Shown in pieces: positions 5,157 through 43,593 of a stretch of DNA of 64,000 nucleotides. This DNA is from a virus. Each line of letters begins with the position of its first letter. The first letter of the stretch is position 1. The stretch lies in the IMG/VR virus record IMGVR_UViG_3300027850_000002, positions 111,416 through 175,415 of that record. One strand, 5' to 3'. The translations under genes and the position numbers were made by a program. Below the pieces are notes generated by a model. It was not told the DNA's origin, made no database searches, and was given only the letters and a program-made list of their open reading frames with translations.

Positions 5157-5158
5157 CC

Positions 5159-5611: not shown

Positions 5612-5619
5612 ATGAACTG

Positions 5620-6219: not shown

Positions 6220-6228
6220 GGAGCAACC

Positions 6229-6999
6229 ATGGCGCTCGGTGTAGTCAAAGGTTTCGATACCTGGTCCTTCCAGGAAAGCTACGTCGAGCGCGTGATGGAC
6301 AACGCTGCGTACACCGCAGCGCATCCTGACGACACGCTCGTTCTCGCAGGGCCTGCGCGAAAGCAGAACCTGTCGCAGGGTTTTGCCAACCTCCTCGCAA
6401 TCGGCATGCTGCAGGCGGTCAACTTCACCCAGACCAAGCCGACACAGCCGATGATGGCGATCGGTTCAGGCCGCTCGTTCTACGTCAGCGGTAAGGCGCA
6501 GACACAGTGGACGATGGGTCGCCTGTTCGTGAACGGACGCAACCTACTTCGCGTGCTCTCGCACAACGCGGTCGCCAGCGGCATCGACGTGTCACAGTTT
6601 GACGACATTGCGGCCGAGTCAGATCCGCAGAGCAAGAAGTACTTCATCAACCTCGACTCCGAGCTGTTCCTCATTCCGTTCGGGATGGGAGCGGTGTTCC
6701 GGGACAAGACGCACGGCTTCTGCGGCGGGTTCTACGCTGAGCTGTCGATGATCACGTCGTACGCGATCGGCTGGAACGCGGGTCAGAACCTGGTGCTCGA
6801 GAACGTCTCGGGTATGTCGGATCGGTTGCTTCCGTTCGGACACAACGCGACGCCGCCGGGTCTTCGACCGCACGCACAGGGCGGTATCGGTGTTCGTGCA
6901 TCCAGCATCGATGCGGTGCTTGGATTCATTGATGACAACAACACCGGTGACAATCAGTCGAATGCGCCAGGGGACACGATCCCCAACGAAAACGTCTAA
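6229..6999 (+). CDS. Probable tail tube / major virion protein
   Basis: A 256-residue protein preceded by AAGGAG at a good distance. Sequence is beta-rich with segments such as QPMMAIGSGRSFYVSGKAQ and SSIDAVLGFIDDNNTG. In contractile phages the tube gene follows the sheath, and this is the only medium-sized beta-rich candidate close behind the sheath. It would form the inner tube through which DNA passes. No signature motif was recognised, so the call rests on order, size and the strong ribosome binding site expected for an abundant protein. Confidence 0.5.
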   Translation: MALGVVKGFDTWSFQESYVERVMDNAAYTAAHPDDTLVLAGPARKQNLSQGFANLLAIGMLQAVNFTQTKPTQPMMAIGSGRSFYVSGKAQTQWTMGRLFVNGRNLLRVLSHNAVASGIDVSQFDDIAAESDPQSKKYFINLDSELFLIPFGMGAVFRDKTHGFCGGFYAELSMITSYAIGWNAGQNLVLENVSGMSDRLLPFGHNATPPGLRPHAQGGIGVRASSIDAVLGFIDDNNTGDNQSNAPGDTIPNENV

Positions 7000-7265
7000 T
7001 GCGCTACTCCCGTGAATGGTTTTTCCTCGTCATCGCTGTGCTCTGTATGGGTGCGGACAGTGCGAGCACAAACACGGACATCGCGGGGTTGCTCAGGGAG
7101 TTCGGATTTCCAATCTTCGTTAGCCTCTGGTTCATGTGGCGTGTCGAGAAACGTATGGACCGTTTCACCGATACGATCCAAAACCTGCTCACGGCAGTCA
7201 CCGTCATGGCGAAAACCATTGACGGCCTGCCGCCCCGAGCATCAACACACCAGCCGCATCCGTAA
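6999..7265 (+). CDS. Small membrane protein, YvrJ/BhlA holin-like
   Basis: An 88-residue protein starting in the TAATG overlap with the tube gene. It has a hydrophobic N-terminus (WFFLVIAVLCMG) and then FGFPIFVSLWFMWRVEKRMDR followed by an amphipathic helix. The second part resembles the YvrJ family, whose GFPI...R.E..L pattern lies in a single membrane span followed by a coiled coil. Related small proteins (BhlA/UviB type) are reported as holin-like. Here it sits in the tail operon, apart from the main lysis block, so its role is uncertain. Confidence 0.5.
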   Translation: MRYSREWFFLVIAVLCMGADSASTNTDIAGLLREFGFPIFVSLWFMWRVEKRMDRFTDTIQNLLTAVTVMAKTIDGLPPRASTHQPHP

Positions 7266-7274
7266 GGGAACTCC

Positions 7275-7508
7275 ATGTCTTGGATCATGACAGGCGTTCT
7301 GGCGTTCGTGGTGGGGGTGATTGTGTGGGCGGAGATTCGTTGCGGTCGTCGCAACAAGATCTTCCAAGCAATGATCGACCCCGAGATCGACACGCTCAAG
7401 ACCAACGCCATTTCCAAGTATCGTGAACGGTTTGGCAAGGACCCCACGGGCCCGTACCTGATCGTCAGCGAACCTCGCGCACGCGACGGGCTCGAAAAAC
7501 GGTCATGA
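7275..7508 (+). CDS. Small membrane protein of unknown function
   Basis: A 77-residue protein with one N-terminal membrane span (residues 4-20, MTGVLAFVVGVIVWAEI) and a basic, then charged soluble tail. It overlaps the next membrane protein by ATGA, so the two are probably made together. No family recognised. Confidence 0.5.
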   Translation: MSWIMTGVLAFVVGVIVWAEIRCGRRNKIFQAMIDPEIDTLKTNAISKYRERFGKDPTGPYLIVSEPRARDGLEKRS

Positions 7509-7855
7509 CCATCGCGCTCGTCGTCGCTTCAATCGTGCTCGCGATTGCGTGGCTCCCGCTCGCCGTTCGCTTCCTGCGCGGTTGGCGAAACCGTAAGAAC
7601 CCCGTCAGCCTCGCCATCTGCGCAGCGCTCTGTTTGTTCGCGTACTCGAACATCATGTTCGCGCTTGTGCTCATCGACGGTGCGTCACTGCGATTTCTCG
7701 CTGTTGCGACCCACACGTTTGAACTCGTCGTCTTGGCCAACTTCTACGTCGCGTTCAAATGGTCTGCGAAAAAGTTTCCAGACGCGCGCACTAGCAAGCC
7801 GCCCGAGTACACCGTGCCGCCAATGAACACGTCGAACACCTCGCGCGAGGCGTGA
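7505..7855 (+). CDS. Membrane protein with about three spans
   Basis: A 116-residue protein with hydrophobic segments near residues 3-22, 33-55 and 67-88 and a short polar C-terminus rich in Pro/Thr. The size and topology are compatible with a holin or other small membrane protein, but no family signature is visible. It is coupled by ATGA to the gene before it and lies immediately before the spike gene. Confidence 0.5.
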   Translation: MTIALVVASIVLAIAWLPLAVRFLRGWRNRKNPVSLAICAALCLFAYSNIMFALVLIDGASLRFLAVATHTFELVVLANFYVAFKWSAKKFPDARTSKPPEYTVPPMNTSNTSREA

Positions 7856-7859
7856 TACG
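7854..7859 (+). promoter_or_regulatory. Putative weak -10 (GATACG), leaderless geometry
   Basis: GATACG lies 8 bases before the GTG of the spike gene, which has no Shine-Dalgarno sequence. The wider string CGTGATACGG is repeated on the other strand before the gene starting at 33981, at the same 8-base distance. It overlaps the stop codon of the upstream gene. Confidence 0.3.
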
Positions 7860-7867
7860 GTCGGGTC

Positions 7868-9274
7868 GTGAAGGACCCTCTAAGCGCACAACGTGGCGCC
7901 GCCAACCGCGGCGCTGCAGGTCTAGGACGTGTCGGTAAGGGGAACTGGGAGTTGGGGGTAGTTGTCGCCTACAACTCAGCGACTCATACGTCCATCGTGC
8001 GTACGCACAGTGGACGCCCTCTCCATGACGTGCCGCAGATCAAAGCGAGCGCGAGTGGCTTCGACCACATTCCCACAGGAACAACCGTTGTGATCTCGTG
8101 GGACCTCGGCATTCCAGCAATCGTTGGATGTATGGACATGCCGCGCTCTCCCCAGCCGGCGACGCAATCTCCCACGCTCACGGGCGTCGAGGGAGTTGGA
8201 AACGCAGACCCAACCCAGCTGACGCAGGGTTCGAACAACTACAAACCGACGAACGCACCCACCGACATGGGACAGGGTGACTGGGCCCAAGTAGGCACGA
8301 TGGGCAACCACGTTGCCGTGCTCGAGGGCGGCGTCTCGCTCTTGGGCAGCCCCTCCGCACACCTGCAGTCGCTGGGGACGTCTGGAACGATGCGAACCAT
8401 CGCGCGACGCATCCAACAGTTCTCGGACTTCGGTCAAATGCGAATCGAGAACGACCAAGGCAAGACGTCGTTCATCCTTCGCGCGGGGTCCAACCAGACA
8501 ACACAAACGGGGCAAGACGAACAGCACTGGACCATTCGATTGGACCTAGGCGCCACCGGCGACATGTTCGACTTCCGAATCCTTGAGCCCGAAGGTGCTG
8601 TGCTGTTCCGCCTCCACGCGGGCGCGGATGGACGTGTTCAGATCTTCGGCGAAGGCGGTGTCGATCTATCGTCGGGAGCGAGTGGGACCGGTCAAATGCG
8701 TCACGACATCGCAGGAGCCCGCGCGACTACCGTAGCCGGCGATGACACCCACGTCGTGGATGGGGCTTCTGACACCGTCGTTGCTGCGTCCGCAACCTAC
8801 GCCATCGGACGGGACATAACACGTTCGGTAGGACGCAACGCAACGGAGTTCATCGGAGGGGGCCGAGATGTTGGCGTGAGCGGCGATGAAACGCTCGCAA
8901 CCGCCGGTGATCGATCTACCAAAGTAGGTGGTAACGATAAGACCGATGTCACAGGAAACTCGACCATCAAGGCGATACGGGTAAACACGATCGACGGTGT
9001 TCAGGTCAAGCTCGGTTCGAACGCGGTGCAACCCGTCACCCGGAGCCTGGATTTTGGATCGAAGGTGCTAGCGCCTATCAGCGCAGCAGCGACCACGCTA
9101 CTCGCGGGGGCAGCCGCCGCCACGGTCATCGGTTCGGCGCTCCCCGGCCCGCCCGTGACCACTCCGTTGGCGCTCGCCGCACTGAATGCAGCAGTATCGA
9201 GCTTTGCATCCGCGGTGATCTCAGCCATCGCTGCATTCCCAGGAACCCTCTCCACGAAAGTGAAGACGGAGTAA
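7868..9274 (+). CDS. Baseplate central spike protein (gp5/gpV-like)
   Basis: A 468-residue protein with GTG start. Residues 25-95 (WELGVVVAYN, TGTTVVISWDLGIPAIVGC) look like the OB-fold that begins gpV and gp5-type spikes. Residues about 285-370 contain short imperfect repeats (TTVAGDDTHVVDGASDTVV, IGGGRDVGVSGDETLA) of the kind that forms the triple-stranded beta-helix of membrane-piercing spikes. The C-terminal 90 residues are Ala-rich and probably helical, which is unusual for a spike tip. No lysozyme domain is visible. It would sit at the centre of the baseplate and puncture the host envelope. Confidence 0.7.
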   Translation: MKDPLSAQRGAANRGAAGLGRVGKGNWELGVVVAYNSATHTSIVRTHSGRPLHDVPQIKASASGFDHIPTGTTVVISWDLGIPAIVGCMDMPRSPQPATQSPTLTGVEGVGNADPTQLTQGSNNYKPTNAPTDMGQGDWAQVGTMGNHVAVLEGGVSLLGSPSAHLQSLGTSGTMRTIARRIQQFSDFGQMRIENDQGKTSFILRAGSNQTTQTGQDEQHWTIRLDLGATGDMFDFRILEPEGAVLFRLHAGADGRVQIFGEGGVDLSSGASGTGQMRHDIAGARATTVAGDDTHVVDGASDTVVAASATYAIGRDITRSVGRNATEFIGGGRDVGVSGDETLATAGDRSTKVGGNDKTDVTGNSTIKAIRVNTIDGVQVKLGSNAVQPVTRSLDFGSKVLAPISAAATTLLAGAAAATVIGSALPGPPVTTPLALAALNAAVSSFASAVISAIAAFPGTLSTKVKTE

Positions 9275-9276
9275 GC

Positions 9277-9435
9277 ATGGCTGAAGACCCCAAATGGGAC
9301 GGTACACCTGCGTTAGGCGTCATCCTTGCGCGGATGGCTGAACTCTACGCACGCGTGGTTCAAGTAGAACTCGCGCAGCAAAAAAAGAACGCGGACCGCG
9401 TCGCTGCAATGTTCACAGAGAGCCCGTCCAAATGA
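9277..9435 (+). CDS. 52-residue hypothetical protein
   Basis: A short gene between the spike and the large structural gene, overlapping the latter by ATGA. The product begins MAEDPKWDGTPALG and then forms one amphipathic helix (ILARMAELYARVVQVELAQQ). Tight coupling on the 3' side and 2-base spacing after the spike support it as a real gene, perhaps a small baseplate component. Confidence 0.55.
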   Translation: MAEDPKWDGTPALGVILARMAELYARVVQVELAQQKKNADRVAAMFTESPSK

Positions 9436-11177
9436 GTACGTGGAACTCCATCAACCCGAATCAGTTGATCCCCAGTAGTGTCGTTGCAGCCGTAACCGCG
9501 ATAGGCGACACCCTCACAAGTGCAATCAGTGCAGCGTCAAATCCGCTCAGTAAATTTCCTTCCTTATCGGCACCGAACGTTCCCGACCCCATCACAGCAG
9601 TCGTTAATGCGATTTTGGATACATTGTCAGGTCTCCTCAAGGCCGGTCGTATTCACACACTTGCCGTACCCATTGTAAAAACGGTTCCTAACAAACCGTC
9701 GCCTCGGTTGCCGTCCACTCTAAACGACCTACAAGCCATGCTTGCAGTGCGATTAGGTCCCGCGTCTACCGCGGAACATGACGCATATACGAACATGGTC
9801 ATGCGTACAGGTGGTAATGCGGGCTTCTACCAAACATTCGCCGCGTCGATCATGGATCCGCAAGACTCCAACAGACCGAAATATGACAACGGTAAAGATG
9901 CCGTTGCGATGACGGTCTTAATGATCGGTGCGCCAAGGTTCTCAAGCATCGCATCAGCAGCATCGACGCTAGACCTTCTAACGCGTCCGACGAGTGACAA
10001 CAGCTTCGTCTCTCGCATCATCCCTGTCCCACAAAATCTAGGTACGAAAGTTGTAGGGTCTACGAAACCTCCGGGAATTGGTGTACGTCTCGATTGGGAT
10101 CCTCCAAAACCAGAGAACACACGTCAATTCTTCCCAGGTCTATCTGTCGAAGTAAAACGTTATGCCGTCATTCGAACAACGGACCCACGCGGAGCACGTG
10201 CACGCATGGTCATGGACTTGTTCAAGACGCAAAAGCTGACTGAAGGTCTAACAACAGGAAAGGCCAAGGTCGTCAAAATCGGGTCGGGCAGAAATACAGC
10301 GTATCTAGATACCGACGCGAGCCTCAAGCCCGCGACCCCCGTCTACTACTTCATCGCGTGGGAATGCACCGTGAAAGAGAACGGGGAGACTGTCACACTA
10401 CCGTTCGATAAACTTTCGAACGTGTCCAAGGTTGCGGTAACGAGTCCTGCTGCACCGCAAACGGGAAGCGCACCCAACTGGGTTGCTACGGACTCGGCGA
10501 TCTCTGCATTTCCAAGTCTCGATAACGCGGCCCGTCGCCTCATCGCAGAGACCCAAGTTCTGCTCAAGCCTTCCGCGAGTCCGCTGTCGCGCATTGATGC
10601 GGCGCTCAAAATATCTAAGGATGCAACTGCACGCTTGTCTGCGCGTTCAACGGAATTGATTGACGACGTCAAGCGGTTGACTGCAGCGCTGTCGGCGCCC
10701 ATTCCCGCGGTCTACGTCACCCAGATGTCGAGCGCTACAGGCGGAACAGCGTTTCTTCTAGCTGAGCTAGCTAAACGTCTCGGCGATACAAGTGACCCTT
10801 CACGCCCCCCGTTTGATAACGGTGAGTATGTGATTGGTGTTTGCTTTGTTGCAGGTGCGCCCCGTCTCGCGGACCTAGCGAAGGTCATCGCATTCTTCAA
10901 GGCGCTATTCGGTCCTGCCAACGCTGCGAATCCGCTACTCGGTCTTCTTGCTTCAATCGACACATTGGTGGCTCAAGCAGAAACGGTAGTTTTCCAGCCA
11001 GACATGACGCCGTTCCCTCCAGGAACGGACCTGACGGCCATCGACCCCGCGACGGGACGGCCTCCAACACTTGGTACGGCGGTGATCGCTGCAGATGGAA
11101 CGCCTGTCGCAGCTGACAGCCCGGACAATCCGAACGCAGGTAACACGAACGTCCCGCCGTCTGCCGAGCGCTGCTAG
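9432..11177 (+). CDS. Large structural protein, probably baseplate
   Basis: A 581-residue protein. The centre (about residues 220-335, VRLDWDPPKPE to PVYYFIAWECTV) has a fibronectin-like beta pattern. Two similar modules flank it, both with TGG, a helix, DNG and GAPR: KYDNGKDAVAMTVLMIGAPRF near residue 150 and PFDNGEYVIGVCFVAGAPRL near 455, so the protein contains a diverged internal duplication. Third positions look less GC-rich than in its neighbours. Position after the spike suggests a baseplate or tail-tip role. Family not recognised. Confidence 0.5.
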   Translation: MSTWNSINPNQLIPSSVVAAVTAIGDTLTSAISAASNPLSKFPSLSAPNVPDPITAVVNAILDTLSGLLKAGRIHTLAVPIVKTVPNKPSPRLPSTLNDLQAMLAVRLGPASTAEHDAYTNMVMRTGGNAGFYQTFAASIMDPQDSNRPKYDNGKDAVAMTVLMIGAPRFSSIASAASTLDLLTRPTSDNSFVSRIIPVPQNLGTKVVGSTKPPGIGVRLDWDPPKPENTRQFFPGLSVEVKRYAVIRTTDPRGARARMVMDLFKTQKLTEGLTTGKAKVVKIGSGRNTAYLDTDASLKPATPVYYFIAWECTVKENGETVTLPFDKLSNVSKVAVTSPAAPQTGSAPNWVATDSAISAFPSLDNAARRLIAETQVLLKPSASPLSRIDAALKISKDATARLSARSTELIDDVKRLTAALSAPIPAVYVTQMSSATGGTAFLLAELAKRLGDTSDPSRPPFDNGEYVIGVCFVAGAPRLADLAKVIAFFKALFGPANAANPLLGLLASIDTLVAQAETVVFQPDMTPFPPGTDLTAIDPATGRPPTLGTAVIAADGTPVAADSPDNPNAGNTNVPPSAERC

Positions 11178-14544: not shown

Positions 14545-14994
14545 ATGCTACAAAGGGCTTTCGAACAGGGCTGTAGCAACGCGTGCGCACGCTTCGGCGT
14601 GAAGATCGCAGCTGTCCCTCTCGCGCGCCCGATACCGCGAATGACGACGCCACACGTGCCAAAGCCCGGCTTCAAGCTCACACCTCAAGAAGAAGCGCAG
14701 GCGTTACGCATGAAGAGTCAGTCGCCTGCACAACGGCAACAAGAACTCGGCTTGGACCGTGACACGCAGAACACGCAGTTCGCACAGCGGCACGACCTGC
14801 CCTCTGCATCCCCTGTGGCGGCTGCCGGGCGGGGTGCGCGTGGTGCGGGTGGTTTCATGCGTCCCATCAAGCGGGGCCTCGGTCTCGCTGCGCTCGGGGC
14901 CGCGGGTACGGCAGCCTACGGTCTCCACAAGCAGCACCATATTGACGAAGAGAAAATTCCGCTCGTCTACGCCCCTCTGCAAGGTGGTTTCTGA
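14545..14994 (+). CDS. Hypothetical protein with shared N-terminal motif
   Basis: A 149-residue protein beginning MLQRAFEQGCSNACARFGVK, a clear copy of the motif AF-x2-G-x3-A-x2-(K/R)-FG shared with the 349, 5159, 14994 and 27138 genes. The middle is polar and Gln-rich; a Gly/Ala segment near residues 110-128 could be a membrane span (GLGLAALGAAGTAAYGL). It overlaps the next gene by TGATG. Function unknown; possibly a virion protein. Confidence 0.5.
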   Translation: MLQRAFEQGCSNACARFGVKIAAVPLARPIPRMTTPHVPKPGFKLTPQEEAQALRMKSQSPAQRQQELGLDRDTQNTQFAQRHDLPSASPVAAAGRGARGAGGFMRPIKRGLGLAALGAAGTAAYGLHKQHHIDEEKIPLVYAPLQGGF

Positions 14995-15269
14995 TGACGC
15001 TCAAGCACGCGTACGCGAGAGGTTGTCGAGCGGCGCTCGAGAAGTTCGCGCTCGATCCTCCAACCGCTGTTGACGCGTTCATGGGCGCGGTGGAATCAGG
15101 CAAGGATGTTGCGCCTGAACCGGCATTGCCGCCGATGTCTCATGCACCCGGCGAGATGCTTCCTGCACTCGACGGCACGACGCCACTCTCGACGTCGCCG
15201 CCCATGTCGCCGGACCTCGGTTCCACCATCGGTGCACCGCCACCACCCATGATGGGCGCGCTGGGCTGA
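14994..15269 (+). CDS. Hypothetical protein with shared N-terminal motif
   Basis: A 91-residue protein beginning MTLKHAYARGCRAALEKFAL, the cleanest example of the recurrent N-terminal motif. The remainder is Pro/Met/Ser-rich and probably disordered. That the motif is followed by almost nothing structured suggests it acts as a tag or targeting element, which is inference. Confidence 0.5.
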   Translation: MTLKHAYARGCRAALEKFALDPPTAVDAFMGAVESGKDVAPEPALPPMSHAPGEMLPALDGTTPLSTSPPMSPDLGSTIGAPPPPMMGALG

Positions 15270-26913: not shown

Positions 26914-27114
26914 CTAGGGCTTGAACACGATCTTCGATTCGCCGTTCACGCGAGCATCGGGGTCACGGACGATAGCGCCGTCCACCGTGACCTTGCCTCG
27001 CAGGATGGCTTTTCGAGCCTTGCCCTTCGACAGTTTGACGTCCTCGGAAACGACGTCGAGTAGCGCGAATGTGAACACCGTCGGGATGTTCTGGAGGGGT
27101 GGTAGGCCTTTCAC
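26914..27114 (-). CDS. Small S4-like RNA-binding domain protein
   Basis: A 66-residue protein with GTG start 4 bases after AGGAG. LSKGKARKAILRGKVTVDGA and the following strand fit the S4 RNA-binding fold (S-x-x-A-x-x-x-I-x-x-G-x-V-x-V-(N/D)-G). Free-standing S4 proteins bind structured RNA and act in translation. It is divergent from the 27138 gene; the two starts are 24 bases apart. Confidence 0.6.
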   Translation of the reverse strand: MKGLPPLQNIPTVFTFALLDVVSEDVKLSKGKARKAILRGKVTVDGAIVRDPDARVNGESKIVFKP

Positions 27115-27122
27115 GGAACTCC

Positions 27123-27128
27123 TATAAT
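27123..27128 (+). promoter_or_regulatory. TATAAT -10 element, leaderless geometry
   Basis: CTCCTATAATTACAG, the hexamer ending 9 bases before GTG 27138. No ribosome binding site serves that GTG. The same bases on the other strand contain the AGGAG of the divergent S4 gene, so the two genes share 24 bases of control sequence. Confidence 0.65.
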
Positions 27129-27137
27129 TACAGCGAC

Positions 27138-28532
27138 GTGGAAAATTACCTGAAGATAGCTTTCCTCGACGGAGCGCAGGATGCCCTGTCACGACATGGC
27201 CTCGCTCCCAAGCGGGAGAAATCCATGCTTCGGAAGGTGCTTCCTTGGGCAGCGGCGCTTGGCGCGGGGGCAGGGGCGTACAAATTCTTACGGACGCCAT
27301 CGTTCTCCGCGAACCCGCTCCTTCGGAAGGTGCAACAGCAAGCCGCGAGCAAGGGCTTCCACCGCATCGTCGACGTCACGCCGGACGGAACCGGCGGACT
27401 GTTTCGTCCGGTGGCCAACGCCGAAGGCAAGCTGTCTCCGTGGAACAAGCTGAAGATGTTCCTCAACGAGGGTACGACCGAAGCGATTCCGATCTCGCAC
27501 GCAGGTGACGTTCCGAAAGTCGTCGGGCACAAGGGGCCGCGTCGCGTGCAGGGCGTCACCCACGGGCGGCATGACGTCTTCGGAACCTCCGACGCCGTAC
27601 GTGGCGGCATCGACATCGAGGGGCCGCAAGAGACGATGACAGCGATGAACCGCGTATCCAAGGGCGGCAAGAAGTTCGAAGCAAACCTGTTGAACAAACA
27701 CGCTCCGGGGTCGATGCCCGAGACACATACCGACCTCGGTCAACTGTTCGAAGGTCTACCTGCCGATCGCCAGCAAGCCGTTGCGGAGCTGCAGAGCCGG
27801 GTTCTTTCAAACCACGGCGAGAACGTATTGCTGAAACCGAACCAGGGCTTGGCATCCGGAGGAAAGTTCCCTCGTGCAAACCAGGACTGGAGTTCACAGC
27901 TTCAAGCATACGATGCACACATGGCAGACCCTGCCAAACGCCAAACGTGGCGAGCAGCGAAGCAAGTCGGCGGAAACGAACTGTCGAAATACATGATCGA
28001 CAACGGATTGTATGAAGGTGGCGTTCTCCATCAGGCGCTGCGCAACCCGAAGTCGGTGCTTGCACAGAAACTGATCGAGAATCCATTGGGTGAATGGCGG
28101 GCACACACGATGGCGGGCAGCGTGCCTGCGAACATGATGTTCCCGCGTTTCTCCAAAGGACCGAAGGCCATCGCGGGCGTCATCCATCGTGACAAGGCGA
28201 TGCAGAGTTTTCTCGAGGATACGGTCGCGAAGCTGCCGCCGAAGTATCAGTCGGGGAACTACGCGTTCGATGTGATGCCACACCGCCAACCGGATGGTTC
28301 CATCGGATACAAGATTCTCGAGATGAACCCAACCGAACAAGCCACGGCGACGGCGGCGGGTGGTGGATCTGGTTTCTTGGATCCGTCCACCGTACCGTTC
28401 ACCGGACACTCGCATTACCGCGCTGCGACGGGCCGCCACACGCCGTTGGTGGCGGGCTTGGGCGGCGTCGGCGCCGCGAGTCTCGCAGGTCTCGGCACGC
28501 GCGCGCTCACTCGTGACGAGGACGAACAATAA
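27138..28532 (+). CDS. Possible ATP-grasp-fold protein with shared N-terminal motif
   Basis: A 464-residue protein starting at GTG behind CCTATAATT. The first residues (YLKIAFLDGAQDALSRHGL) carry the motif shared with other probable virion proteins, then a hydrophobic segment. LLKPNQGLASGG near residue 230, EWRAHTMAGSV near 325, YAFDVM near 375 and ILEMNPTEQ near 394 follow the order of nucleotide- and metal-binding elements in ATP-grasp ligases. A Gly/Ala hydrophobic tail closes the protein. Substrate unknown. Alternative: a structural protein with chance resemblance. Confidence 0.5.
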   Translation: MENYLKIAFLDGAQDALSRHGLAPKREKSMLRKVLPWAAALGAGAGAYKFLRTPSFSANPLLRKVQQQAASKGFHRIVDVTPDGTGGLFRPVANAEGKLSPWNKLKMFLNEGTTEAIPISHAGDVPKVVGHKGPRRVQGVTHGRHDVFGTSDAVRGGIDIEGPQETMTAMNRVSKGGKKFEANLLNKHAPGSMPETHTDLGQLFEGLPADRQQAVAELQSRVLSNHGENVLLKPNQGLASGGKFPRANQDWSSQLQAYDAHMADPAKRQTWRAAKQVGGNELSKYMIDNGLYEGGVLHQALRNPKSVLAQKLIENPLGEWRAHTMAGSVPANMMFPRFSKGPKAIAGVIHRDKAMQSFLEDTVAKLPPKYQSGNYAFDVMPHRQPDGSIGYKILEMNPTEQATATAAGGGSGFLDPSTVPFTGHSHYRAATGRHTPLVAGLGGVGAASLAGLGTRALTRDEDEQ

Positions 28533-35151: not shown

Positions 35152-35774
35152 TGGCGGACCGCCCGATGTGTTGCGATCTTGTTAGGACCTGTGTACGTGG
35201 TCGTGATGTTGAATGTCGCGAACTCGCCTTGGCCCGAGCCGCCGTCGGTGGCGAGAGCTGTAGCTGCGCCCGTTCGGAACACGCGTAGCCGCGCGAATAT
35301 TTGTCCGTTCGGGTCAGTGTTGTTTGTCTGGTCCATGTAGAAGTTGCCTTGGAGAAGACCGGCGGCGACTGCGATCGCATCTCCGACACTGCCGACGACG
35401 GCGTGTGCCGTGAGCAAGTCGTCGAGGACGGCAGCGGCGATCGCGGGTGCAAGAGGAAGATCGTCGGTGTTGCGCGTCAGGATGTTGAACGACGCGACGC
35501 CGCTGACCGGGCATCGTGCAGTCACGCCGCCGACAGTGACCTCGGCGTAGCTGCTGTACTCGTGACCCACGAGAAAGCCGTTGCCTGTCGTCAAGACCGC
35601 CTGAATCTCGTAAAGCCCGACAGCCTTCAACGCGACGACAGGCGCGTAGCCCATCGGCGTGCCTTGATCGAGGATCACACAGACCGGAAGGGAATCTGCG
35701 TTCTGTGCAGCGCCCGTTCCAAAATTCGCAGTCCCAAAGGTTCCGCGGAGGGTTTCACCAAGTTTGACGTACAT
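35148..35774 (-). CDS. Tail/baseplate structural protein candidate
   Basis: A 208-residue protein overlapping the kelch gene upstream. The first 90 residues are beta-rich (PVVALKAVGLYEIQAVLTTG). The middle has LLTAHAVVGSVGDAIAVAAG, the H...GSVGeal pattern common in phage tail proteins. The end is again beta-rich. Role inferred from motif and neighbours. Confidence 0.5.
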   Translation of the reverse strand: MYVKLGETLRGTFGTANFGTGAAQNADSLPVCVILDQGTPMGYAPVVALKAVGLYEIQAVLTTGNGFLVGHEYSSYAEVTVGGVTARCPVSGVASFNILTRNTDDLPLAPAIAAAVLDDLLTAHAVVGSVGDAIAVAAGLLQGNFYMDQTNNTDPNGQIFARLRVFRTGAATALATDGGSGQGEFATFNITTTYTGPNKIATHRAVRQ

Positions 35775-38700
35775 CAGCCACCTCCACGCAGAATGTTCGA
35801 ACCCACCAAGACGCCGCCGCCGCCACTGCCGCCAGCAATGATCTCGAGCGGATCTTGCGCCAGGAGAAGCGGATCGACTTCAACCTCGACTTGACTCGGC
35901 AACACGATGATCGAGCCGGTCACCGCTTGAATGGGCACGCCAATCGAACTACGCGAACCGTCAGCCACTGTACGGAACTCGGTGTTGCCGCTGTACGGTC
36001 CTTGCGGGTCGACGCTGTTGAGCGGGACGCTGCCGTTCCAAGGTACAGCGAATGCGTGACGCGACTGATCGGTTTGATACAAGTTGTTCGTCTTGAACAC
36101 GACCTTGTGCATCATGTAGTCGCGGGCAGTGCTCACCGTGATCGAAGTGCCGCCGTAGCCGTACGCTCGATCCGGCAAGTGCAAGAAGGACGATTCGCCC
36201 TTGATGCCACGACCCGCAGGCGCACCGCCGGTCTGTAACCACACCCACGGCCACAACCGCAGGTGGTTGCCTCCGACAGCAGGGTCACACCCAAAGAGTC
36301 CTCCGCCACCGCTACCACCACCCGCGATGGTGCCGTAGAGCGTCTCGTAGGTCGGAGAGCCGACGTTCGTCCAAAGCGCGTTCTCAGCAGTGAACGCCTC
36401 GCCGTAAAAAAACGCTGCGAAGGGTTGTGCGAACGGCGGGTAGTTGCTGTTTCCGCTGGAGTTGAATGCGCCCTGCATCCCGGAGAAGCCTTGTCCAGGC
36501 GAACTCCGCTGAGACACGTAGACAACGTACGGATCAGGGTCGGACGGGTCTGCGTTCTTGATCGGGTCATAGAACATGAACCCGGACGCTGAGCCGTTGA
36601 ACTTGCCGGTGTACCAGTGGTGTCCTGCGTGAACGAAGTGCGCACGACTTCGTGAGACGTCGTACGCGGTCGCGGCATATCCGTCGGAGCCTCCGGTGTA
36701 TGGCAACGCCTGGCCTTGGTTGTTGCCAGTCGGCGCCTCGAAGAAGTCCGTCTCCTGTTGCCAACCAAACACGGTGTCGACACGGTCCCAGAAGTATCCA
36801 GGTCCAGGGATGAAGCCTGAGTAGTTGCGCCCGCCTGCCATCGCGAGAACACCGCGCGCGTTGTCAAACCACATCGACCCGCCGACGCGCGGCAGGCTTG
36901 CCGGCAGAAACGTTTGCAGGACCCAATTTCCGCCGACCCATTTCCACGTATCGGTAGGAAAGATGCTGCCGTTGTACCCGCCGTACAGCCACACATTCGT
37001 TCCATCGCCACACATCGCCACCGACTCGCGCGTCCCTGGATTGTTCGCGGGTGCGAGCAAAGTCCAGTTTGATCCGTTCCACGAGTACGTCGAGGACTGG
37101 AGTGTCGGAGAACCGTCGTAGCCTCCGTACAAGATGACGCGGTCGCCGGCGCCATCCCATGCCATCGCGTGAAGAAACCGTGTCGCGGGTGTCGTCACGG
37201 GAACGGCGTTCGTCCACGTCACGCCGTTGTACATCCACGTGTCCGAGAGTGCGCTGTTGTTGCGATCACGACCGCCGAAGAGCACGACACGGCTGTTGGC
37301 CACGTCGTATGCCATCGAATGGTGGTACCGCGCTGACGGAGACGTTGTAGGAAAGATGCGTGTCCACTTCGTGCCGTCGAATTCCCATGTTCGATCGGTC
37401 GCGCCGTTTGGTGGCGTAACCGTGTCGTTGTATCCACCGAACCAGACGAGCACCTGTCGAACAGGGTCATAAACCATCTGTGAGCCGTGCCCAGCAGACG
37501 GAATGGCGCGGACAACACTCCACTGCGTACCGTTCCACAACCAGGTTTGGTTGCTGGTCTGGTTGCTGAACCCCCACGGAGCGTAGTCGTTTCCCGATGG
37601 AAACCCGGAATGCACAACCATACGTGCTCGATCAGAATCGAAACACGTAGCTGCACTGGCACGCCGACTCGGGGCACGTTCGTCCGGAAGCGAAAACGGT
37701 GTCGACGGTGATGCGACGGCCAGTGTCCAGTTCGTGCCGTTCCATGTGTATGTAGCACCGTCGTAGATGCCGCCAGCGAGCAACCCGCCCAACATCACAA
37801 TCTTACCGTTGGTCGTGTCTGTCACCATCGCTTGCGTCGAGCGTGCTGGTGGTATGGTGCCCGGAGCAAGCAACGTCCACGTATTGGTCGCTGTATTGAA
37901 CTCGTACGTCTGGCTGTTCGGGACTCCGCCGTTCTCGCCGCCGAACATGATGATGCGTCCGTTGGACGGGCTGATGCCCATGCCAGCGCCCGCGCATGCG
38001 GTCGGTGTTCCAACGGTTACGAGCAACGACCAATCCGTGCCGTCCCACTTCCAGGTGTCGTTCAGATACGTGCCACCCTGATCCTTGCCGCCGAACATGA
38101 TGATCGCATCCGCCGCGGGCGACCACACCATGGATTGTTGCTGGCGTGCGGGCGGTGTCGTAGTGACTGTAGTCGATGGGTGCCAACGCACGCCGTTCCA
38201 GATCATGGTCGTGGGCGTGGTTTCGATGTTGAAGTTGTCGATGAGGCCACCGAACAACACAACCTCTTGACGAGTCTCGTCGTACGCCATCGCGCCATTG
38301 CGACGAGGCCGCGGAGATCCGTTCCACGAGACCGTCGCAGCTTTCCAATCCGTGCCGTCCCACAGCCATGTTTGGATGTCGACGAAGTTGCCGCCAAACA
38401 AAACGCCTCGCTGACGAGCCTTGTCGTAGGCCATCATCGCGCCATCAGCAGCCGGCGGTGAATGTGCCAGTGAGTCAGGGTTACTGTCCCCACTGGTATC
38501 GAGCACGACCCAATCGTCGACGGCCAGCCCGCCTGCAACGAACCACCCGTCAAGATTGTAGCCGTACCCGCCTGCCCACCATCCATAGGGCGCAGCGTTG
38601 TCAGCGCTGATCGTGAACGTCTGATCCCCGTCTGGGTAGAGCGGGACGACGGCGAACGTCGGTGCTGCATCTGTTCCGCCACCGACAATGATGTGCTCAT

Positions 38701-39109
38701 CAACAGACGTCGGTGTTTCGATTGCGGACGGTGTTCCGCTCGTGAAAGGCGCAAACAGCGTGTACTTGATACGCCAACACAGGTTTGCAGAAAATCCAAG
38801 GAGGGGCGCGTACCCGAGTGTGTTGAGCGCTGCCGGATACACCGTGGCGTCGTCGACACGCTGAAAACAGAACATCGCACCGCTGTCCGGCTTCTTGATT
38901 ACAAACCACGCGAGTGTGTTCGCCATGCCGCCTGCGCCTGCGCCTGCGGTCGTGATGACGTCGTTGACGTTGCCTGGCGTTGTAGAGAACGTCGTACCAT
39001 CACTCGACGCTTGTACGACCCAACCGCAGCTCTTGAGCAACTGCTTGATTCGGAAGATCGCCTCCGCGAACGTGGCGGGAATGAAATTGGCGTCGAATTG
39101 CATGGTCAT
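35774..39109 (-). CDS. Tail protein with inserted kelch beta-propeller
   Basis: A 1111-residue protein. The N-terminus (FRIKQLLKSCGWVVQASSDG to about residue 200) and the C-terminus are paralogous to the two genes upstream. Between about 215 and 840 lie roughly eleven kelch-type repeats, each with a MAYD-like strand, VVLFGG, and a W-x-(W/F)-(D/N)-G-x-x-W end (for example GVLFGGNFVD, WDGTDWKAA). Eleven exceeds a single 6-7-bladed propeller, so two propellers or one large one are possible. The propeller probably faces out and binds host or debris glycans. Confidence 0.7.
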   Translation of the reverse strand: MTMQFDANFIPATFAEAIFRIKQLLKSCGWVVQASSDGTTFSTTPGNVNDVITTAGAGAGGMANTLAWFVIKKPDSGAMFCFQRVDDATVYPAALNTLGYAPLLGFSANLCWRIKYTLFAPFTSGTPSAIETPTSVDEHIIVGGGTDAAPTFAVVPLYPDGDQTFTISADNAAPYGWWAGGYGYNLDGWFVAGGLAVDDWVVLDTSGDSNPDSLAHSPPAADGAMMAYDKARQRGVLFGGNFVDIQTWLWDGTDWKAATVSWNGSPRPRRNGAMAYDETRQEVVLFGGLIDNFNIETTPTTMIWNGVRWHPSTTVTTTPPARQQQSMVWSPAADAIIMFGGKDQGGTYLNDTWKWDGTDWSLLVTVGTPTACAGAGMGISPSNGRIIMFGGENGGVPNSQTYEFNTATNTWTLLAPGTIPPARSTQAMVTDTTNGKIVMLGGLLAGGIYDGATYTWNGTNWTLAVASPSTPFSLPDERAPSRRASAATCFDSDRARMVVHSGFPSGNDYAPWGFSNQTSNQTWLWNGTQWSVVRAIPSAGHGSQMVYDPVRQVLVWFGGYNDTVTPPNGATDRTWEFDGTKWTRIFPTTSPSARYHHSMAYDVANSRVVLFGGRDRNNSALSDTWMYNGVTWTNAVPVTTPATRFLHAMAWDGAGDRVILYGGYDGSPTLQSSTYSWNGSNWTLLAPANNPGTRESVAMCGDGTNVWLYGGYNGSIFPTDTWKWVGGNWVLQTFLPASLPRVGGSMWFDNARGVLAMAGGRNYSGFIPGPGYFWDRVDTVFGWQQETDFFEAPTGNNQGQALPYTGGSDGYAATAYDVSRSRAHFVHAGHHWYTGKFNGSASGFMFYDPIKNADPSDPDPYVVYVSQRSSPGQGFSGMQGAFNSSGNSNYPPFAQPFAAFFYGEAFTAENALWTNVGSPTYETLYGTIAGGGSGGGGLFGCDPAVGGNHLRLWPWVWLQTGGAPAGRGIKGESSFLHLPDRAYGYGGTSITVSTARDYMMHKVVFKTNNLYQTDQSRHAFAVPWNGSVPLNSVDPQGPYSGNTEFRTVADGSRSSIGVPIQAVTGSIIVLPSQVEVEVDPLLLAQDPLEIIAGGSGGGGVLVGSNILRGGG

Positions 39110-39113
39110 GGGT

Positions 39114-40247
39114 TCACGTCAACGGCAGCGAGCCGTTCCAATCGAGGATGACCTTGCCCACGACGATCTTATCGCGTGAGGTGACGGCCTTGAGTGCTTG
39201 TCCGTTGGAAAGATGTGCGTTGCAGAACTGCATCAACGACGACACCCCTTTGTAGCCGCGGATCATGCCGGGTGCAGACAATCCAAACCCGTCGGTGCCC
39301 ACTTGAAATTGGGGGGCTGTGATTTTGTTGTTGTAGCTGTTGTACGACCAACCCATGGGGAGGCCGTACACGACAGGCCACCGATCAACTTTGTTGTTGA
39401 TCGGATTTTGCATTCGTCGTTCAGACGCTACGTAGTCCGGGAAGTGTGTTTGCATCGGAAGCCACGTCTCGACAGGGCCGCCGTAGTCGATGTACCCCCA
39501 GATCGAACTCTGTCCGGGTTGAAACGCGTATTGAAGCTCGTCGTCGAGAGCGTTTCCGTAACCCGCCCACGTGAAGTAGAACGCGTACGGATCGAGGTCT
39601 CCTGGAACAGCATGCATGATCGGGTCGAACACGGCGGCCCAGCCTGTGCGTCCGCTGAGGTGTCCGTCACCTTGCATGCCGTAGCCAACTATCCACCAGC
39701 CATACGGGGCAGCGTTGTCAGCCGCAATGTGGAAGATGGTGCCGGTGATGCGCTGCGACCCGAGCCACTCGGACCATTGAGGCGACGCATCTGTTCCAAA
39801 CCGTGCGGGGTCTGATCCGTATTTGCCGAGTACGAACTGTTCATCCAGCGCGTACGGAGTCTGGATGGCACTCGGTGTACCGCTGGTGAAGCCAACGTTG
39901 ACGGAGTATTTGATTCGAAACCCCGTGGACTGCGGATTCGCGGTATCGCCCAATCGACGCTGAATCTGAAAACACAACTGTCGGTTGTCGTCGGGCTTCT
40001 TGATCACGAACCACGCGAAGTCTTGGTTCATCTTGTCAACGGTCGTGATGACATCATTGGCGTTGCCCGGCGTCGTGTTGAACGACGTGCCGTCACTCGA
40101 TGCTTGGATGACCCAGCCCACCGACTTCAAGTGCTCCTTCAGCGTGAAAAGCATTGTTGCATGTAGACCTGCGGTCCCCAGACCCCCACTGGTGCTCCAG
40201 TCAGGATCAAAGCCGCGCAGAATATTGTTTGCGCTGAATTGCATCAT
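39114..40247 (-). CDS. Tail/fibre protein, paralogue without propeller
   Basis: A 377-residue protein. LKEHLKSVGWVIQASSDGTS near residue 37, FAWFVIKKPDD, FTSGTPSAIQTP and DNAAPYGWWIVGYG are shared almost word for word with the 39109 gene, as is the C-terminal V.SRDKIVVG...DWNGS.P. It lacks the kelch block. Probably a tail-tip or fibre subunit. It overlaps the third paralogue by ATGA. Confidence 0.6.
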   Translation of the reverse strand: MMQFSANNILRGFDPDWSTSGGLGTAGLHATMLFTLKEHLKSVGWVIQASSDGTSFNTTPGNANDVITTVDKMNQDFAWFVIKKPDDNRQLCFQIQRRLGDTANPQSTGFRIKYSVNVGFTSGTPSAIQTPYALDEQFVLGKYGSDPARFGTDASPQWSEWLGSQRITGTIFHIAADNAAPYGWWIVGYGMQGDGHLSGRTGWAAVFDPIMHAVPGDLDPYAFYFTWAGYGNALDDELQYAFQPGQSSIWGYIDYGGPVETWLPMQTHFPDYVASERRMQNPINNKVDRWPVVYGLPMGWSYNSYNNKITAPQFQVGTDGFGLSAPGMIRGYKGVSSLMQFCNAHLSNGQALKAVTSRDKIVVGKVILDWNGSLPLT

Positions 40248-41218
40248 GCGATGTCTCGCTTCGGCAGGGTGCCGTTCCAGGGTGCCGCGACGAGATAGCC
40301 GAACCCAGGGCCAAGGATGATGCGATCGCCTAGGGTGTCGACGGTCAAGACTGTGCCGATCGATCGCGGATTCAACACGTTCTTGAACAACGACGACAAC
40401 CCTTTGACGCCTTGTCCCATGCTCTTCGTGAAGCCGTAGATGATAGGACCGAGGTCGTCTTTGCCGTTGTATGGATTCGCACCTTGTCCATCGTATTCTG
40501 AACCAGGCATCACGATCCCCGAGGAGTAGTCATCGTAGAGCCACTGACCGTCGTACATCGCGAAGCGTTGCTGTGTGCCCGTACCGACGTACCCCCAACC
40601 AAACAAGTAATGGTCGGCCGTGCAGATGTACACGTATGGATCCGGGTCGATGGACACAGCAAGTGTGTTTGGATGGAGTGCGTCCATCGCGATCATCTGC
40701 GCGTATTCGTAGTCGCCGTTGCTGCCGTCCAACACGGCGGCATAGAATCGCCAGGGCGCCGTGTCTTCGACACAAATGTTCCACCGGATATCGCGATTGA
40801 AGCCGCCGAGATTGAACCCGTAAAAGTTGTCGTCGGAGACGAAACCACTGTCTGGTGCGGTTGGCTTGTCCGTCGCGGGGATCGCGCCTGCGACGAACCC
40901 CGCAGTCTTCGACACTCCGATGTACCAGTACTGAGAGCTAATGTTGTTGTCTGGGCCTTGTGGAAACAAGCCGCGCTGGAACATCCACTCATGTAGATTG
41001 TCCGGCGCCCGGACAACGAACCACGCGTTGTTGTTGTCCATGCCGTTGGCGCCGCTGTTGCGGTGTGCGATCTGATCGCCTGAGGCGTTGTACGTGATGC
41101 CGTCGGACGAGATCGGCACCGTCCACCCCACCGCCTTCAACGCTTCCTTGAGTGCGAAGACGGCCCACGGTGTGAACCCGTAGCGCAGGAAGATGTTGTT
41201 GTTGAAAACGAAGGCCAC
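40244..41218 (-). CDS. Tail/fibre protein, third paralogue
   Basis: A 324-residue protein with GTG start 1 base after the upstream stop. ALKEALKAVGWTVPISSDGI, NAWFVVRAPDN, EDTAPWRFYAAVLDG and DRIILGPGFG correspond to the shared elements of the two downstream paralogues, though more diverged. Its C-terminal PWNGTLPKRD matches theirs. Probably part of the same tail assembly. Confidence 0.6.
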   Translation of the reverse strand: MAFVFNNNIFLRYGFTPWAVFALKEALKAVGWTVPISSDGITYNASGDQIAHRNSGANGMDNNNAWFVVRAPDNLHEWMFQRGLFPQGPDNNISSQYWYIGVSKTAGFVAGAIPATDKPTAPDSGFVSDDNFYGFNLGGFNRDIRWNICVEDTAPWRFYAAVLDGSNGDYEYAQMIAMDALHPNTLAVSIDPDPYVYICTADHYLFGWGYVGTGTQQRFAMYDGQWLYDDYSSGIVMPGSEYDGQGANPYNGKDDLGPIIYGFTKSMGQGVKGLSSLFKNVLNPRSIGTVLTVDTLGDRIILGPGFGYLVAAPWNGTLPKRDIA

Positions 41219-41219
41219 G

Positions 41220-41636
41220 TTAGGGCTCCTTGGGCTTGTCGGGCTTGTCGGGTTTATCGTGTTTGGCGGGCTCGCCTGCTTCACCGTTCACGAGCAATCG
41301 ATCGGGAATCGGCGGCATCAGAACAGGTGTTGGTGTCGGCTCGACGGGCAAGACAGTCGGACCGACGATCCAACCGCCCGCCTTCAAGATCGACAGGGCC
41401 TCGAGAGGTGCGTCGAACTCGGTCTCCGGTTCTCCGAGAAAATCAACAAGGCCCCATGTGATGGGAAACCGCCCTCGCTTCACACGAGCACGCACCCGCA
41501 CGCGCACAGTGTTGTTGGGGACGGGCGCGTCCTTGGACTCGGGCTCAGCTTTACCCAGTGCAGCAGGTGCGCCTTGAAGTTCAGTTTTTTCCTGTGCAAC
41601 AGGTGCACGCAGCGGTCGTTTCACCTGACGCTTCAT
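41220..41636 (-). CDS. Pro/Lys-rich hypothetical structural protein
   Basis: A 138-residue protein starting at an ATGA overlap. Residues 45-110 look folded (VRVRVRARVKRGRFPITWG, LSILKAGGWIVGPTVLPV); the GGWIVGP part echoes the GWVV segment of the tail paralogues. The tail is a KPDKPDKPKEP repeat. Function unknown. Confidence 0.45.
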   Translation of the reverse strand: MKRQVKRPLRAPVAQEKTELQGAPAALGKAEPESKDAPVPNNTVRVRVRARVKRGRFPITWGLVDFLGEPETEFDAPLEALSILKAGGWIVGPTVLPVEPTPTPVLMPPIPDRLLVNGEAGEPAKHDKPDKPDKPKEP

Positions 41637-42145
41637 GGTTGCGGCTCCCATACTCCATTGGTGACGTGACCGTGAGCGCCGCACGTACGGCACTTCAAGC
41701 TCGGCGTCAGCGTGAGCGGTTCAACGCAGATGATCTGGTGGACCGGAGCCCCGTCGAGAGGTCGCACGGCGCAGAACGACTGGCACACGGCGTTCGAGTT
41801 GCGTGCGTCGATGTGCGTGTGCAGCCAGCCGATGAGGATCTCGTCTTTATCGAGCACGGCCTCGAACGTGTGGCCATGTCCCAGCTCAAGTGCTCCGACG
41901 TGGACAAGCGGCTCCTTGGATGTAGGCTGCGCCTTCGTGGGATCATCACGCCACGCGGGCCTGCCATTGATCTCGTCGAGGTCATCGGCGGTGCGCGCGA
42001 TCGGCTCCTCGAACCTTTGCTTACGCAAGCAGTCACTGCACAACGGGCGGTGTGCGAGCGGCGTGTTCGGGACATGATAGAGACGCTCGTCGATGCGCTT
42101 GCAGTCGCACTCGCCGACGCCGACGTAGACCGGACGCTCCATCAT
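41633..42145 (-). CDS. Zinc-site protein of unknown function
   Basis: A 170-residue protein with three metal-type clusters: CDC near residue 13, CSDC near 36, and a C-terminal CRTCGAHGHVTNGVWEP. The last resembles the end of DUF6527-like proteins. ILIGWLHTHIDARN and the closing LTLTPSLKC suggest a compact domain. Overlaps both neighbours. No function can be named. Confidence 0.45.
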   Translation of the reverse strand: MMERPVYVGVGECDCKRIDERLYHVPNTPLAHRPLCSDCLRKQRFEEPIARTADDLDEINGRPAWRDDPTKAQPTSKEPLVHVGALELGHGHTFEAVLDKDEILIGWLHTHIDARNSNAVCQSFCAVRPLDGAPVHQIICVEPLTLTPSLKCRTCGAHGHVTNGVWEPQP

Positions 42146-43533
42146 CAGCGCCGTCCCGGCAACGCGAACGCGGCAGCGGCGGCTTCCTCACCCAGCGAGG
42201 CCCACTTCGGATTCTGTGGTGGGCTGTGTTCTTGGATGAGGGGCTTCGCGTTGCCGAACGCCTGGCCCATCAGGTTGCCGGGACGGGCCGGGTCCTTGAT
42301 GTAGTTCGTGAACGCGTGGTTCATGCCGTGCTGGTGCGCAGCTGCAGCAGCTTCGCCGCGCTCTATCACATCAGTACGAAGGCCCGTGGGCTGACCCGGC
42401 TTGATCGGAAGGTAGTCCACGGCTTTGCCACCGACGATGTTGCCTTCGTGCACGTCGTGCAGACGCATGCCGTTGGGACGCTCGCCGCGCACGCGCGTGG
42501 CCGCTTCGAAGCTGGACGTCGCGCCCGGGTGATCGGTGGCGTGCTCGTAGAAGTGCGCGGGTCCGATCTTTGTCGGGGTCTCACCCTTGTACTGCGCGAC
42601 GTACGGGTTGCCGCGCAGTGCGGTTCCGGCCTCCGCCTTGTTCGCGACCATCAGGGGACCGGAGATGCCTTGCGGGTCGTAGACCTTGCGGACCGCGATG
42701 CCGTGCTCGGGGTGCGCGACGAGCGTCGACGTTCCCTCCATGCCGCTGCCGATGTGTTTGATCTGGCTGCCGGCCGCAGACGGCTTGAGCACGCCGGGCG
42801 TGGTAGCGAGCCGGTTCGCTGCACCCATGTTGCCGGTGTTGATGTGCTGCTGGATTGCACGCATGCCTGCGCGCGCAGCCGTCTTCTCCGTTGAGAACGA
42901 TGCGGCCTTCTCGCCGAGCGACTTCTCGCGTCCGGTCAGCGGGATCTCGTGGTGATCGCGTGCCGCTACGTGCGCGTGGTCGATCGTGAACTTTGCATCG
43001 AACGCGGGAAGGTGACCTTCAACGCGCCCCTTGTCGCCGAGGTAGCCAAGCGTAATGTGCGGGGTGAAGGTGTGGAGATCGGACGGGTCGATACCGTGCG
43101 TAGAAAGAGCACGCGACATGTCGACGTGGAGGTGTTCGAGGCCTGGCGCGTCGAGTAGCGCGACCAGAGCAGTCGAAGGCTTGCCGCCGCTCGAGGCGCC
43201 ATCGAAGTAGCCCCAGCCTTGGATCTTGGCGTCGATGGGTTCGGTCTTTTCGCCGACCTGGCGAAGCGCGGAGAGTGCGGCATGTACCTTCTCGGGTGGA
43301 TGGTCCTCGGCGGGCTTGCGCGTGTAGACCAACGTGACGTGGTCAATGTCCTTGTGCTTCGACGCATCCGGGATGACCTTCCTCTGGATTTCCCGAAGGT
43401 TGTCAGCGACATGCTCGGGCACGCGAACGTGCACGAAGAACGTCTTTGGATCAGTCGAAATCCTCGCAGTCTTCACCTGGCTGGAGGCCAGAAGAAGCTC
43501 ATCGAGCACCGCGGCAAACGAGACGGTTCGCAC
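42145..43533 (-). CDS. 2H phosphoesterase fused to a kinase-like domain
   Basis: A 462-residue protein with GTG start behind CCTATAATT. Residues 25-195 carry the two HxT motifs of the 2H superfamily: HVT at 65-67 (DHVTLVY) and HIT at 159-161 (FTPHITLGYL). Residues about 258-380 look like a phosphotransferase/kinase fold: IGSGMEGTSTLV as glycine loop, VRKVYD as the strand with Lys, and RLHDVHEGNI (359-365) as the catalytic H-D...N, then VDYL. 2H enzymes hydrolyse or ligate 2'-5' and cyclic phosphodiesters; the T4 anti-CBASS protein Acb1 is one. The end is Ala-rich and disordered. Confidence 0.65.
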   Translation of the reverse strand: MRTVSFAAVLDELLLASSQVKTARISTDPKTFFVHVRVPEHVADNLREIQRKVIPDASKHKDIDHVTLVYTRKPAEDHPPEKVHAALSALRQVGEKTEPIDAKIQGWGYFDGASSGGKPSTALVALLDAPGLEHLHVDMSRALSTHGIDPSDLHTFTPHITLGYLGDKGRVEGHLPAFDAKFTIDHAHVAARDHHEIPLTGREKSLGEKAASFSTEKTAARAGMRAIQQHINTGNMGAANRLATTPGVLKPSAAGSQIKHIGSGMEGTSTLVAHPEHGIAVRKVYDPQGISGPLMVANKAEAGTALRGNPYVAQYKGETPTKIGPAHFYEHATDHPGATSSFEAATRVRGERPNGMRLHDVHEGNIVGGKAVDYLPIKPGQPTGLRTDVIERGEAAAAAHQHGMNHAFTNYIKDPARPGNLMGQAFGNAKPLIQEHSPPQNPKWASLGEEAAAAAFALPGRR

Positions 43534-43539
43534 GGGGAA

Positions 43540-43545
43540 ATTATA
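43540..43545 (-). promoter_or_regulatory. TATAAT -10 element, leaderless geometry
   Basis: On the minus strand CACCTATAATTTCCCC ends 6 bases before the GTG at 43533. It is divergent from the plus-strand CCTATCATT at 43586, the two hexamers being 42 bases apart, with a run of nine A between them. It probably drives the whole tail run down to about 34 kb. Confidence 0.65.
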
Positions 43546-43587
43546 GGTGTTCCGGCCGTTTGCACCGGAACCAAAAAAAAATCCACC

Positions 43588-43593
43588 TATCAT
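43588..43593 (+). promoter_or_regulatory. TATCAT -10 element, leaderless geometry
   Basis: CACCTATCATTACATGATG: the hexamer ends 3 bases before one ATG and 6 before the next. Same variant (TATCAT) as at 11210. An A-tract (43573-43581) lies just upstream. Confidence 0.6.

Follow-up and report, generated by a model that had tools for sequence, protein, structure and literature searches.

A 2H phosphoesterase joined to a minimal protein kinase domain in a probable late phage gene

The 2H phosphoesterase fold is found in RNA 2',3'-cyclic phosphodiesterases of the LigT/ThpR type, such as Deinococcus drCPDase (5h7e) and E. coli LigT, and in the phage protein Acb1 (T4 gp57B and its FBB1 counterpart), which is encoded near virion genes (PMC9117128). 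The residues by which Acb1 stacks on or contacts the bases of its substrate are Y12, W74, F107, E141, and W147 (PMC9117128). In addition, polyvalent proteins hold both 2H domains and kinases without a C-lobe, and for the 2H domains a role as RNase or in the degradation of a nucleotide signal has been suggested, according to the part of that account consulted (Iyer et al., 2017; PMC5512222). The phage protein described here resembles polyvalent proteins, as far as they are presented in that part, in being a multi-domain, conflict-type enzyme with shuffled modules. No pairing of a 2H domain and a kinase came up in the same portion of the account (PMC5512222). Each half of the protein is of a known kind; what is new is their combination, together with the swappable second half.

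The gene lies in a window of 64,000 nucleotides (positions 111,416 to 175,415 of the viral record IMGVR_UViG_3300027850_000002), where a minus-strand ORF at 42145-43593 is open over 482 codons. This ORF has the highest coding score among the genes between 39110 and 50000, and it is conserved among relatives. The start appears best placed at GTG 43533, because a CTATAAT box is located directly 5' of it and all six aligned 2H loci have both the box and a GTG in this position. From this GTG the 2H phosphoesterase-minimal protein kinase fusion (42145..43533, minus strand) would have 462 aa, and residue numbers counted from the GTG are those of the 482-codon ORF minus 20. The dN/dS values against a relative with the same architecture (L002) were ∼0.23 for the 2H part and ∼0.20 for the kinase part plus C-terminal region, showing that the 2H half and the kinase half are both under purifying selection.

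The 2H domain and its likeness to Acb1

The window protein carries, with near certainty, a 2H phosphoesterase domain (42949..43449, minus strand; ORF residues 49-215, or 29-195 from the GTG). It matched Pfam PF13563 (2_5_RNA_ligase2) at E=1.5e-14 (54.8 bits vs. a cut-off of 27), LigT_PEase at E=5.4e-9, and PHROG 755 'RNA ligase' at E=6.8e-9. The first catalytic motif, HVT, is encoded at 43333..43341 and the second, HIT, at 43051..43059 (both minus strand). The preliminary description had placed them at residues 65-67 and 159-161, which is exact in the numbering from GTG 43533. In the AlphaFold model, built from six aligned sequences, the domain has a pLDDT of ∼70-84, and the two motifs are predicted on paired strands of the duplicated 2H fold, as that description had anticipated.

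Foldseek matches to the full window model ran through the 2H half only. After structural realignment the best fold match was drCPDase (Z 14.7), with LigT at Z 13-14 and a Burkholderia phage phosphodiesterase at Z 11.5; a literature search on the latter enzyme, from phage BCSR5, gave no paper. LigT/ThpR-type cyclic phosphodiesterases were also the best sequence match among solved structures (E=3.4e-4). LigT/ThpR-type enzymes, however, are cellular and single-domain, whereas the window protein is a phage fusion.

With Acb1 the window domain has in common the 2H fold, the HxT/HxT pair, a significant pairwise similarity, and its occurrence as a phage gene near virion genes. Pairwise BLASTP against T4 Acb1 gave E=9e-7 with 27% identity over 135 residues and both HxT motifs aligned, and structural realignment to FBB1 Acb1 (7t26) gave Z 11.8, although Acb1 was not among the best 50 Foldseek matches listed for the window model. 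The Pfam Acb1 profile (PF23474) scored 25.1 bits, slightly below its curated cut-off of 27. In BLASTP and MAFFT alignments W74 of Acb1 corresponds to the invariant W127 and Y12 to F53 of the window protein. The five contact residues Y12, W74, F107, E141, and W147 align as F, W, L, I, and no equivalent, respectively, so that ∼2/5 are kept, in an alignment whose C-terminal part is uncertain. The adenine-contacting E141, the lid residue W147, and F107 have no equivalent in the alignment. On this evidence the 2H head could be an Acb1-type anti-CBASS nuclease destroying cyclic di- or trinucleotide signals, with the kinase as an add-on, but we consider this somewhat unlikely: the LigT/CPDase group fits better in both profile and fold, the three contact residues just mentioned lack counterparts, and late expression would be odd for counter-defence unless the protein is packaged. 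The fused kinase is a further difference from Acb1. The broader suggestion made earlier, that the protein acts on a nucleotide signal, is plausible in view of the pairwise and structural similarity to the T4 and FBB1 proteins.

The kinase half

We conclude that the second half is almost certainly of the protein kinase kind (Aurora, PknB) with the C-lobe missing, as judged from the predicted structure of a relative. Three relatives of this half were found, one with the same 2H-kinase architecture (L002) and two in which the kinase stands alone (L013 and L016). The minimal kinase domain of the window protein (42394..42780, minus strand; ORF residues 272-400) has a Gly loop GSGMEG, the lysine of a VRK strand, a DVHEGN catalytic loop, and DY replacing DFG, and is not followed by a C-lobe. 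Its own AlphaFold model is of low confidence, with one close relative only, and the assignment therefore rests on homology to L016 (37-41% identity).

L016 has a Pfam Pkinase match (E=0.0036) that falls short of the curated cut-off, and its model has a core block-mean pLDDT of 78-93. The predicted order is beta1-beta2-beta3-alphaC-beta4-beta5-helix-catalytic loop-DFG, with the five N-lobe strands at residues 53-60, 64-71, 75-82, 111-116, and 122-127 and with a Gly loop and a beta-3 Lys. After the DFG position confidence collapses, and past residue 192 there is no confident fold, i.e., the helical C-lobe is absent. Foldseek followed by structural realignment gave Z 12.9 to Aurora and Z 10.5 to PknB. 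An aminoglycoside phosphotransferase (APH)-type kinase had been proposed for the second half. A kinase at residues ∼250-380 is upheld by the relatives, among them L016 with its modelled N-lobe and catalytic loop. The kind is more probably that of a eukaryote-like protein kinase without C-lobe. The APH profile gave no Pfam match, and the fold matches listed for L016 were protein kinases and their relatives.

Five residues do not vary across the four kinase members found: the Glu of the Gly loop, the Lys of VRK, the catalytic Asp, the Asn, and the DFG-like Asp (the last three are D142, N147, and D155 in alignment A4, n=4). With its catalytic residues kept, the domain looks active from its sequence. 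It has in common with the Ser/Thr protein kinases PknB, Stk1, and Aurora the N-lobe, the Gly loop, the beta-3 Lys, the catalytic Asp/Asn, and the DFG-like Asp, but differs from them in the lack of a C-lobe, the Glu in the Gly loop, and the non-conserved catalytic-loop His.

The kinase half of the window protein had no match in Pfam or PHROGs, and a consensus kinase sequence had none in Pfam. Searches of the phage collection with this half gave only matches with E of at least 2, and the genome collection yielded no relative. A degenerate-DNA scan recovered the L013 contig only, again, and a sequence search of solved structures with the kinase profile returned nothing relevant. Two further candidates were discarded: L011 was a chance match within a tape-measure-like protein, and the MT835604 match of L016 is a Ser/Thr kinase of the PASTA type that seems to be bacterial.

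Compared with polyvalent-protein kinases as characterized in the part of the account available (PMC5512222), the window kinase has lost the C-lobe, kept the active site, and carries a Glu directly N-terminal to strand 2 (E63 of L016, directly before strand 64-71 and invariant in the four members). Two signatures stated in that part are absent: there is no Gln in the last N-lobe strand (strand 5 reads AHFYEHA/AHMMEYV) and no His-Asp insert (HDVHEGN runs without it). The polyvalent-kinase profile PF18762 likewise gave no match at E<=10 in this record and that of L002. As for the surroundings of the stand-alone kinases, the one in L013 directly follows a gene judged portal-like by sequence, with no Pfam support, and that in L016 directly follows a P-loop protein and lies two genes after a weakly ART-like protein (PARP/Tpt1, E 0.03-0.05).

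Promoter, operon, and the exchangeable second half

The CTATAAT box (43540..43546, minus strand) has no -35 element, and the first T of its TATAAT stands 12 nt ahead of the G of GTG 43533. No promoter came out of a two-hexamer sigma-70 scan, in line with a -10-only box. The 175-kb record contains 12 CTATAAT copies vs. 1.5 expected; most are 11-17 bases before a start codon, virion-region genes included, and one is directly upstream of the tail sheath gene. In the record 11 sites have an ATG or GTG 4-12 bases after the box, compared with 6-7 apiece in three relatives, and that of the 2H gene is the sole one on its strand in all four phages. Within the window the sites are at 2725, 14164, 27123, 43545 (minus strand), 55850, and 56487, and a scan of the window found no second copy on the minus strand. 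From the genes it precedes, CTATAAT looks like the late promoter of this phage. The preliminary description had assigned the gene its own promoter; the box is there, but it is of a -10-only, late type common to virion genes. The spacing between box and start in the four related phages suggests leaderless or near-leaderless transcripts.

Because the 2H-kinase gene has the box that virion genes also carry, and this box is conserved in three related phages, it probably belongs to the late genes and is the first of the tail-fibre operon. The support for late expression is good but indirect. The position of the gene also agrees with the earlier view of it as the first gene of the tail run. The downstream gene (41633..42145, minus strand; 170 aa) is beside the 2H gene in all operon relatives read, and its product has a conserved Cys/His-rich tail, whose similarity to DUF6527 is weak and sub-threshold. 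The rest of the operon (35774..41284, minus strand) comprises genes for 346-, 377-, and 1111-aa proteins, the last with Kelch repeats; position and repeats make these likely tail-fibre/appendage proteins. The Kelch repeats of the 1111-aa protein (35774-39109) are many, and the neighbouring 346- and 377-aa proteins show a similar N-terminal part.

The second half at this locus differs among relatives. It is a kinase in the window and L002, a cupin in L007 (Cupin_2, E=4.2e-16 in Pfam; identical in L003, L006, and L008), and missing in L004 and L005. The window 2H domain is closer to that of the cupin-bearing L007 (81% identity) than to that of the kinase-bearing L002 (76%), and this sequence relationship points to cassette exchange, with loss and rate differences as alternatives. 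The C-termini of the 2H proteins of L002, L004, L005, and L007 have related tails, 'PGKGxTSPxxGGxPxQTGGMHSGGG', after the variable module; the tail is absent from the window protein, which ends ALPGRR.

The junction between the halves, 'STEKTAARAGMRAI' (42853..42894, minus strand), aligns with the N-terminus of the stand-alone kinases (ELQKIAARRGLKEI). The stand-alone kinases start '...FSDELQKIAARRGLKEI' and '...FKDELEKISARAGFRLI', and the junction aligns to both. Near the other end, 'GQAFGNA' of the window protein aligns with 'GQAFRGA' of L016. Given these two alignments, the window protein seems to consist of a 2H protein fused to a complete stand-alone kinase protein, the junction being a trace of this fusion and a possible processing site.

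At the N-terminus, the predicted helix 'VRTVSFAAVLDELLLASSQVKTAR' (43462..43533, minus strand) is similar to N-terminal segments of the stand-alone kinases ('FSDELQKIAAR') and of certain virion-region proteins, a likeness that was spotted after the fact. The pattern K[TILVF]A, chosen post hoc, occurs in 12/39 virion-region genes vs. 3.2 in shuffles. The helix is, speculatively, a candidate packaging or processing signal.

Proposed role of the two-headed protein

We favour, at roughly even confidence, a phage effector of the polyvalent-protein kind that is expressed late, is directed against the bacterial host, and has two heads, the 2H domain and the kinase. The 2H head would cleave RNA or a 2',3'-linked or cyclic nucleotide defence signal. 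Phage T7 protein kinase phosphorylates host proteins, and the kinase head may do likewise. The protein would travel in the virion and act as the next infection begins, possibly once it has been cleaved between its 2H and kinase parts. Two points lead to the proposal that it is possibly packaged: its production is probably late, and its N-terminal segment resembles the N-termini of virion-region proteins. The effector reading is also supported by the capsid-protease polyproteins elsewhere that contain 2H domains, by the neighbours of the stand-alone kinases in L013 and L016, and by the occurrence of both domain types in polyvalent proteins (PMC5512222). Weighing against the effector are the location in a tail-fibre operon and not among head genes, the lack of a PF18762 match for the kinase, and the small set of four kinase members found. 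The polyvalent proteins compared, as covered in the part consulted (PMC5512222), differ in this location. A more specific version of the effector is rather doubtful: the first position of this divergent late operon would be a polymorphic effector slot, with a constant, signal-bearing 2H domain and a swappable kinase, cupin, or no cassette; the kinase cassette would be a new C-lobe-less family in which the Gly-loop Glu perhaps replaces the alpha-C Glu, and it would be packaged and freed by cleavage at the EKTA junction.

A role in morphogenesis, where a late protein processes RNA or phosphorylates virion or tail-fibre proteins during assembly and is not injected, is unlikely. The first place in the tail-fibre operon and the late-type promoter agree with it, as do L009 and gp7 of Microbacterium phage ValentiniPuff, where a 2H domain is fused to an XkdF capsid protease and lies inside virion-module proteins. 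The partner there is a capsid protease and that of the window protein a kinase, and the XkdF profile (PF14550) had no match in six records, this phage included. Against a role in assembly, the kinase/cupin half is dispensable (L004 and L005), unlike a core assembly factor, and the available part of the polyvalent-protein account presents 2H and kinase domains as typical of conflict proteins (PMC5512222). The L009 fusion (4371-9671) is a 1766-aa polyprotein in which a 2H domain is combined with those of an ATP-dependent DNA ligase and an XkdF capsid protease, beside a Mu-F-like protein.

We regard it as quite improbable that the kinase half is a nucleotide-binding pseudokinase gating the 2H nuclease in an RNase L-like way. 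The catalytic-loop His and the alpha-C Glu are not conserved across the four kinase members, the C-lobe that normally binds protein substrates is lacking, and RNase L was among the fold matches of the L016 model; but the invariant Lys, both Asp, and the Mg-binding Asn in four diverged members favour catalysis, and in L013 and L016 the domain occurs without a 2H partner. The break-and-reseal role raised in the preliminary description, with the 2H domain opening 2',3'-cyclic ends as 2H-type cyclic phosphodiesterases do in some systems (PMC7824862) and the kinase phosphorylating 5' ends to allow the resealing of cut tRNAs, has very little chance of being correct, as the kinase has a protein kinase fold and not that of a P-loop polynucleotide kinase, and neither RNA_ligase (PF09414) nor RtcB (PF01139) was matched in this record and three relatives (four possibly incomplete records, with T4 Rnl1-type ligases outside the search).

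In the effector that we favour, one small protein joins two enzyme types of phage-host conflict and is tied to a recognisable late regulon, a link that leads to concrete tests of virion carriage for such proteins. As the C-termini are exchanged in nature (kinase, cupin, or none), the contribution of each module can be compared, and a very small protein kinase would help to ask what a kinase does without its C-lobe.

Several other features of the window were observed. Many virion-region proteins (14545-15269, 27123-28532, and in the upstream part of the record) share short N-terminal stretches, for example 'AYxxGxxxALxKFG', or a first helix ending in K[TIL]A, segments that could be a scaffold/packaging or processing signal. 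The mechanical start of ORF 27099-28532 is probably wrong; a late box inside it points to a GTG start giving 'MENYLKIAFLDGAQDALSRHGL'. A 480-aa protein at 50241-51683 matches both the DFP flavoprotein and the class II aldolase domains, here in a phage.
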